Source of the DNA: Elusimicrobiota bacterium
GTDB taxonomy: Bacteria > Elusimicrobiota > Elusimicrobia > UBA1565 > UBA9628
DNA: 59,454 bases
Direction: 5' to 3'
Assembly: GCA_003151975.1 (NCBI GenBank)
Contig: PLZD01000067.1
Coordinates: 65,143 to 124,596 of the forward strand
Shown: positions 11,050 to 12,819 of the stretch, one piece after another
Numbering within the stretch: position 1 is the stretch's first letter
Layout: every line of letters starts with the position of its first letter
Program-made: the position numbers and the translations under genes
Notes under the pieces: model-generated
Told to the model about the DNA's origin: nothing
Databases searched by the model: none
Seen by the model: the letters and a program-made list of their open reading frames with translations, nothing else

Positions 11050-11597
11050 TCGCGTCCCTGCTGTCGCTGTTTATCCTCTACGCCCAGCCCGCGGGCGCGA
11101 TGTCGGCGGTGCGCTTTTTGGCCTTCTCGCATGACGGGCACACCATGGCCTCGGTGACCAACGAGACGATCCGGCTCTGGGACGTCGGCGGCGGCAAGCT
11201 GGCGGCGTCCTTGAACGCTCACGACGGTACCGTGTCCGCCGTCGAGTTCTCGCCCGACGACAAGCTGCTGGCCACCGTGAGCTCGGGCACCGTGCATCTT
11301 TGGGACGTGGCGCGCGCGCAGGAGGCGGTGGCGCTTCAGGGAAACGCGAGCCACGCGGTGGCCGTCGCCTTCTCGCCCGACGGGCGCGCGCTGGCCTCGG
11401 CGCAGCGCTCCAGCATCAATATCTGGAATCCCGCCACGGGCCGCGCGATCGCCACCCTTAAGGGCCAAGGCGGGAGCATCTACTCTCTGGCCTACTCGCC
11501 CGACGGCCGCTATGTCGCCGCGGGCATCGGCTCCGACGGCGTCCAAATCTGGGACGTCGCCGGACAGCGCCTGCTGACCACTCTGGGCCCTAACTAG
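11046..11597 (+). CDS. secreted WD40-repeat protein
   Basis: A 183-residue protein: a short signal peptide (MIASLLSLFILYAQPAGA) and four WD40-type blades, seen in TIRLWDVGGGKL, TVHLWDVARAQE, SINIWNPATGRA and VQIWDVAGQRL, each preceded by a VxFSPDG element. Four blades are too few for a closed seven-bladed propeller, so it may dimerise or be a shortened propeller. The ATG overlaps the cytochrome stop (ATGA), so the two are one transcript; a link to the cytochrome is inferred from that only. Confidence 0.8.
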   Translation: MIASLLSLFILYAQPAGAMSAVRFLAFSHDGHTMASVTNETIRLWDVGGGKLAASLNAHDGTVSAVEFSPDDKLLATVSSGTVHLWDVARAQEAVALQGNASHAVAVAFSPDGRALASAQRSSINIWNPATGRAIATLKGQGGSIYSLAYSPDGRYVAAGIGSDGVQIWDVAGQRLLTTLGPN

Positions 11598-11877: not shown

Positions 11878-11962
11878 GGACCTGATTTAGGCTCCGGCCG
11901 CCGTTTTCGTTCGCCAGTGTTTCGTTGCCCTTCCGCCTGTGGCAATCGCGCCTGCGAATGGT

Positions 11963-11989
11963 TATAATGCCCCGAGATAAGGGGCATTA
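11963..11989 (+). promoter_or_regulatory. histone gene promoter with palindrome over the start site
   Basis: TATAAT at 11963-11968 is followed by a perfect 9-bp inverted repeat, TAATGCCCC (11965-11973) and GGGGCATTA (11981-11989), with a 7-nt loop. The repeat begins inside the -10 box and spans the expected start site, as an autoregulatory operator would; the transcript end of it followed by TTATTTTC could also act as a weak terminator. The leader continues to a strong AAAGGAG site 9 nt before ATG 12012. Confidence 0.55.
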
Positions 11990-12011
11990 TTATTTTCAAA
12001 GGAGAGAACTC

Positions 12012-12206
12012 ATGGCCAAGAAAGGCGAGATGCTTCTCGTGAGCAGCAAGGTCAAGGCGATTTTGAAGGGCTACAAGTGCAACACCGCGGGAGACGCGCT
12101 CGACGGCCTCAACGGCTGGGCGCATTGGCTCATCGAGCAGGCCGCAAAGCGCGCCAAGGCTAATGGCCGCAAGACCGTCCGGTCCTACGACTTCATCGTC
12201 CGTTAA
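12012..12206 (+). CDS. bacterial histone-fold DNA-binding protein (HBb-like)
   Basis: A 64-residue basic protein. The layout matches a single histone fold: alpha1 in VSSKVKAILKGY (about 10-21), a long alpha2 in DALDGLNGWAHWLIEQAAKRAKANG (about 28-52), loop 2 with RKTVR (53-57) and a short alpha3 beginning SYDFIVR. The Arg-Lys-Thr-Val plus Asp pattern is the loop-2/alpha3 signature shared with archaeal histones and with the Bdellovibrio histone HBb. A strong AAAGGAG ribosome site and TATAAT promoter suggest high expression. It should be a dimeric nucleoid protein. Assignment rests on reading the motif; a structure prediction would confirm it. Confidence 0.8.
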   Translation: MAKKGEMLLVSSKVKAILKGYKCNTAGDALDGLNGWAHWLIEQAAKRAKANGRKTVRSYDFIVR

Positions 12207-12819
12207 GCGCGGCATCGTACCGCTGACGCTAGCCTTCCTGACGGCCTGCGCGCCTCGCGGCGAGCTGGCGTTGGGGGACCAGGCTTTTCACCAAGGGCGT
12301 CAGGAAGAAGCGGCGCGCCATTACTCCCTTGCCGTCGATGCGGCGCGGGCCGCTCACGGGCCGGAGCTTGCCGCGGCCCTCAATAGTCTCGCCGCCGTCG
12401 AGCGCCTCGAGGGGCGCTACGATAAGGCAGCGGGTCTTTACCGGCAGTCCGCGGCCTCGCTTGAAAAGTTTGTGGGCGCCGATCCCGTCGAGCTGCGCAC
12501 GCTCTATTACGACCTCGCCCAGGTCCTGAGCCTCGCAGGCAAGCTCAAGGAAGCCGACGAAGCTTACGGACGATTCTCGGATCTGGCCGTCGGCGGCGCG
12601 GTCGCGGGCGGCTCCGAGCTGGCCGACGAGCTGGTCGAGGCGGGGCAGTACTTCGATCTGCAGCGCGATCATATCGCGGCGACGAAATGCTACGCGCGGG
12701 CCTTGACGATCCGCGAGCGCCTGCTGCCGCCGGGCAGCGCCGCCATCACCGAGCTGCAAGAGGATATCGAGGCCGCCAAGAAATCCATTCGCGACGAGGG
12801 GGCCGCGCCCAGACCATGA
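12163..12819 (+). CDS. TPR-repeat lipoprotein
   Basis: A 218-residue protein. The lipobox LTAC places the lipidated Cys at residue 29 after a hydrophobic stretch (GIVPLTLAFLTAC). The mature part holds about four TPR-like helix pairs (GDQAFHQGRQEEAARHYSLAVDAAR, LAAVERLEGRYDKAAGLYRQS, and a pair near the C-terminus), a protein-protein interaction fold. The only ATG in frame, 12163, overlaps the histone-fold gene by 44 nt, giving a long n-region; a non-ATG start nearer the lipobox is possible. Its stop overlaps the kinase ATG, so it is likely the periplasmic companion of that kinase. Confidence 0.75.
   Translation: MAARPSGPTTSSSVKRGIVPLTLAFLTACAPRGELALGDQAFHQGRQEEAARHYSLAVDAARAAHGPELAAALNSLAAVERLEGRYDKAAGLYRQSAASLEKFVGADPVELRTLYYDLAQVLSLAGKLKEADEAYGRFSDLAVGGAVAGGSELADELVEAGQYFDLQRDHIAATKCYARALTIRERLLPPGSAAITELQEDIEAAKKSIRDEGAAPRP

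Follow-up and report, generated by a model that had tools for sequence, protein, structure and literature searches.

The gene at positions 12012-12206 of the window, by which we mean the whole stretch of 59,454 nucleotides analysed here, encodes a bacterial histone. Judging from the sequence and predicted fold of its 64-residue product, we consider it probable (roughly 0.7) that this protein is an alpha3 histone of the face-to-face (FtF) kind, resembling HLp of Leptospira perolatii, and that it would wrap DNA without sequence preference. Prokaryotic alpha3 histones include FtF tetramers as well as bacterial dimers (PMC11390915), and the two bacterial histones characterised in structural detail in the literature consulted are HBb, a bending dimer (PMC11317129, PMC10627809), and HLp, a wrapping tetramer (PMC12701072).

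The gene and its surroundings

The open reading frame runs on the forward strand from an ATG at 12012 to a stop at 12206, and its complete product is MAKKGEMLLVSSKVKAILKGYKCNTAGDALDGLNGWAHWLIEQAAKRAKANGRKTVRSYDFIVR. The sequence-only reading had quoted the C-terminal end as AKRAKANGRKTVRSYDF; that segment is present, but three further residues, IVR, come after it. Its 124.6-kb contig also bears the S10/spc/alpha ribosomal protein operon, so that the gene is chromosomal. A chance ORF is ruled out by orthologues in several phyla, and a contaminating contig by the ribosomal protein operon together with matches L007 and L008 (genomes G298 and G306), which belong to the same family as the window's genome and place the host in Elusimicrobiota. 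An origin from a phage or plasmid was also rejected, as relatives were absent from viral contigs and phages and the sole plasmid relatives were haloarchaeal FtF histones. Nor is the neighbourhood conserved: save for one distant kinase match in L011, no neighbour recurs beside orthologues.

The ribosome site that had been proposed for the gene was found as the Shine-Dalgarno sequence AAAGGAG, with a similar one in most orthologues. The accompanying proposal of a strong promoter is weakened: a sigma-70 match of 10/12 is present, but its TATAAT is overlapped by a terminator-like hairpin (Table 1). Almost no shuffled sequence folds as well as this hairpin (z -3.6), which was absent upstream of all orthologues examined and may terminate transcription of the upstream ORF or serve as an operator. 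A short WD40-repeat protein is encoded at 11100-11597, between a cytochrome c gene and the histone gene. On the other side, 12163-12819 encodes a TPR protein that may carry a lipoprotein signal (LTAC), and a histidine kinase gene follows it. The sole ATG start in the listed TPR ORF falls within the histone gene, at its 3' end, and these two genes may be translationally coupled.

Table 1. Features of the histone gene and its upstream region (window coordinates)
Feature	Coordinates	Strand	Basis
Sigma-70-like match GTGGCA-18-TATAAT, 10/12, uncertain	11939..11968	+	
Perfect 10-bp inverted repeat, 7-nt loop, then TATTTTC; terminator-like; overlaps TATAAT	11964..11990	+	
Shine-Dalgarno region CAAAGGAGAGAACTC, immediately 5' of the histone ATG	11997..12011	+	
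Histone gene, 64 aa, type A subfamily of alpha3 histones (probably FtF-like)	12012..12206	+	
Helix alpha1, residues 11-20	12042..12071	+	DSSP on model, alignment to HLp and HBb
Loop L1, residues 23-27 (C23 N24 T25 A26 G27)	12078..12092	+	
Long helix alpha2, residues 27-50, including FtF interface arginine R47	12090..12161	+	
Loop L2, residues 51-57 (N51 G R53 K T55 V R), with FtF asparagine, RD-clamp arginine and DNA-contact KT pair	12162..12182	+	
Short alpha3, residues 58-61 (S Y D60 F61); D60 aligns with the aspartate of the RD clamp	12183..12194	+	
C-terminal extension I62 V63 R64, past the last residue of HLp	12195..12203	+	

Histone fold in sequence and predicted structure

In a phmmer search of the PDB, the best E-value went to HLp (1.4e-10), ahead of those for HBb/Bd0055 (Bdellovibrio; about 5e-6) and for HTkC, an FtF histone from archaea (5e-4), and a profile of 21 subfamily members gave 9.8e-19, 8.5e-14 and 1.1e-13 for the same three. 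The AlphaFold2 single-chain model has a mean pLDDT of 88.9. With this model Foldseek placed HLp at the top (TM 0.82/0.92, rmsd 0.8, 49% identity) and HBb and HTkC next, the probability being 1.00 for all three alike and the gap in E-value between HLp and HBb small. DSSP assigned helices to residues 11-20, 27-50 and 58-60 of the model, so that the last helix is cut to the three to four residues typical of alpha3 histones, and the RxTxxxxD motif of that group is present as R53-K-T55-VRSY-D60. The phmmer search, the AlphaFold model and Foldseek thus bear out the initial proposal that this is a bacterial protein with a singlet histone fold, akin to HBb. The profile recommended for checking it, CBFD_NFYB_HMF (PF00808), gave no match in a Pfam search with the 64-residue protein, although this protein is a histone, and among its relatives matched only weakly, in 4 of 21; that profile test alone would therefore have missed the histone. 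Against the profile of archaeal nucleosomal histones (NF043032) the protein scored 14.4 bits, where the curated cut-off is 50.

Face-to-face tetramer or dimer

The FtF class is defined by a predicted or solved face-to-face tetramer, and bacterial dimer histones are without the arginine and asparagine that connect the two dimers (PMC11390915). In HLp (PDB 9QT0, 9QT1, 9QT2), which is an FtF histone, the tetramer residues are R49 and N53, plus R55 (PMC12701072). All three are kept in the 64-residue histone, where they align with R47, N51 and R53, and the two proteins have the fold, a short alpha2, a one-turn alpha3 and the RD clamp in common. Across about 31 members of the subfamily that we call type A, R47, N51, R53, T55 and D60 are invariant. 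HBb (Bdellovibrio bacteriovorus; PDB 8CMP, 8FVX, 9EZZ, 9F0E; PMC11317129, PMC10627809), in contrast, has S and D at the positions of the FtF arginine and asparagine, both of which our protein carries.

The same division was seen with FtF and dimer profiles, which we built in the present analysis from few sequences: the FtF profile scored higher in 31 of 31 type A members, with a margin of 7 to 30 bits. For the 64-residue histone the scores were 67.4 and 39.4 bits, and omitting HLp from the FtF profile still left 58.8 against 39.4. In a 78-row tree of 66 columns, most deep forks of which are weak, type A lies with HLp and the haloarchaeal FtF histones on one side and HBb on the other, although the fork uniting type A with HLp is itself weak (96/75). 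Tree and profile scores, with this reservation about the tree forks, set the protein apart from HBb. L066, a second histone copy from a Bdellovibrionota genome, was placed within type A, at the end of a long branch.

The likeness to HBb that had first been stressed therefore stands as a relatedness of fold, while among characterised histones tetrameric HLp is the closest, and FtF residues that HBb lacks are kept. HBb is about 37% identical by structure alignment and shares the histone-fold singlet, the RKTV loop, the RD clamp, the alpha1 SK motif, the N-T of L1 and a few residues past alpha3; it has one more residue around L1. HLp also differs from the 64-residue histone, which has three extra C-terminal residues, a shorter N-terminal tail, A50 and Y59 where HLp has the tetramer residues S52 and T61, an N24 preceding the threonine of L1, and W36 and W39 in alpha2. 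HTkC (PDB 9F2C) and the haloarchaeal FtF histones (PMC11390915) likewise have the RxT motif and an arginine close to where alpha2 ends, and the haloarchaeal plasmid copies are 41-50% identical to our protein; in HTkC the asparagine is replaced by E, and the haloarchaeal proteins end at D-L, without an extension.

The C-terminal extension is the feature that complicates the assignment. All type A members continue for 1-4 residues beyond F61, the position at which the chains of HLp and of haloarchaeal FtF histones stop. In the FtF model, the C-terminal carboxylate of the opposing dimer is in contact with the key arginine (PMC11390915); we took residue 55 of that model as the chain end because related haloarchaeal proteins are 55 residues long. 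In the 64-residue histone F61 is kept, but it is not the last residue, so that this contact, if made, would have to be made differently in type A. As the extension shifts the C-terminus, full membership of the FtF class is only tentative. The protein could instead be a dimer-only, DNA-bending histone like HBb, with R47 and N51 kept for some other reason and the extension, which no type A member lacks, blocking the tetramer interface. The N-T pair in L1 and the identity of 7 of the 10 main HBb DNA contacts would agree with this, as would the fact that Elusimicrobiota have been reported mainly for bacterial dimer histones (PMC11390915). We nevertheless regard it as unlikely, given the invariance of R47 and N51, the lead of the FtF profile throughout type A, and the position of HLp as best match both by sequence and by structure; moreover, the dimer histones of Elusimicrobiota form a separate group, described below, which offers the published report an alternative home.

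DNA contacts and proposed mode of action

HLp contacts DNA through A13, S14, K15, K17, K21, T27, G29, T56 and T57 (PMC12701072), and the matching residues of the 64-residue histone are S11, S12, K13, K15, K19, T25, G27, K54 and T55. Seven of these positions are identical (S14, K15, K17, K21, T27, G29 and T57 of HLp; S12, K13, K15, K19, T25, G27 and T55 here), and K54 is the residue used by HBb at the position of HLp T56. Within alpha1, S11, S12, K13, K15 and K19 occupy the positions of DNA contacts in HLp and HBb alike; in HBb, N22 of L1 is also in contact with DNA (PMC11317129). From these correspondences we infer that the protein binds DNA. In the mode of action that we propose, it would form a handshake dimer, and two dimers would pack face to face, with the last part of alpha2, loop L2 and alpha3 (R47, N51, R53) making the interface. 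About 50-60 bp of DNA would be wound round the tetramer ring, with backbone contacts from alpha1 (S12, K13, K15, K19), L1 (T25, G27) and L2 (K54, T55).

A second histone in the same genome

The genome holds a second histone gene of 60 residues, L022 (also L086; C2:64723-64899 of G000), just downstream of a tRNA-Met gene. HU is also present, whereas Leptospira has neither HU nor a second histone. The family profile of L022 matches HBb best (1e-21, versus 1e-10 for HLp), and HBb is likewise its best PDB match. Its predicted model has the same helix plan, with a mean pLDDT of 84.1 (59 to 84 over five models). This type B histone of Elusimicrobiota thus has a predicted alpha3-type histone fold in common with type A; it differs in one extra L2 residue, a lysine at the RD-clamp position and D or E for N51. 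The genome therefore appears to encode one HLp-type and one HBb-type histone beside HU. With bending and wrapping histones seemingly in one genome, their division of labour is open to study in a single cell type.

Codon usage was compared through an index in which the ribosomal operon served as reference and the window genes, called by a simple script, as background. The gene at 12012-12206 has an ordinary index of 0.67 (rank 19 of 48 window genes), a value reached by 20% of random recodings, 64 codons being a weak guide to abundance. L022 stands at 0.78, the level of ribosomal proteins, and by eye has a promoter TTGACA-18-TATATT. The earlier description of the 12012-12206 product as an abundant chromatin protein is unsupported by this comparison, and it is L022 that these weak indicators favour as the abundant histone. 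In our model, the 64-residue histone would act in this cell as a secondary architectural protein beside the HBb-type histone and HU, and not as the main one.

Of 341 Elusimicrobiota genomes, 99 gave some histone match, and in 15 a type A gene scored high, at about 100 bits or above. A second, lower-scoring match was present in 14 of these 15 genomes, and the nine second copies that we read all grouped with L022. This co-occurrence could mean that type A pairs with the HBb-type histone of its genome in heterodimers or mixed particles. We think this very improbable: the dimer type occurs in about 80 Elusimicrobiota genomes without type A and so does not need it as a partner, the interface residues differ widely between the two histones, and the co-occurrence tracks shared ancestry, for which the count of 14 in 15 is uncorrected. 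A histone-fold protein outside chromatin, with some other DNA-related or regulatory job, would suit the patchy distribution, the ordinary codon usage and the unfixed gene neighbourhood, but is scarcely credible with all seven of the compared HLp DNA-contact positions kept.

Returning to the HLp-like wrapping histone that we prefer, a more far-reaching version of it can be formulated. In most type A members loop L1 reads C-N-T and position 39 is W or Y. Together with the C-terminal extension, these features call for care in assigning type A fully to the FtF histones and are the basis for reading it as a distinct histone class of Bdellovibrionota, Myxococcota and Elusimicrobiota. Its tetramer interface would have been rebuilt (C-terminal extension, H/Y59, alpha2 aromatics), and each cell would have two histone systems, an abundant bending dimer and a scarcer wrapping tetramer. 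We put this forward as a tentative possibility.

Distribution and transfer between phyla

The gene has orthologues, 62-82% identical, in Bdellovibrionota, Myxococcota and other Elusimicrobiota. In the tree, the type A sequences of Elusimicrobiota do not form one group and are interleaved with those of Bdellovibrionota and Myxococcota, which suggests that the gene has been transferred among the three phyla, although some metagenome bins could be mis-binned. A near-identical type A gene in three phyla is a clean case for how histone genes travel between bacteria. The persistence of histone genes in Elusimicrobia was reported earlier (PMC10627809), and the 64-residue histone therefore fits existing classes; its sequence, or close relatives, may already be in the supplementary tables of histone surveys.

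Three further observations concern relatives in other genomes. L002, a type A sequence 82% identical to the query, lies on a contig labelled Solirubrobacterales (Actinomycetota) and groups with Bdellovibrionota, through either transfer or mis-binning. The second histones of type A-bearing Myxococcota genomes (L063, L064, L065 and L070) retain both FtF residues, arginine and asparagine, and have D-L or D-I as their last two residues; those genomes therefore seem to have two FtF-like histones. Finally, L074, from G158, consists of a cysteine-rich, finger-like segment followed by a dimer-type histone domain, and is possibly a ZZ-type histone.
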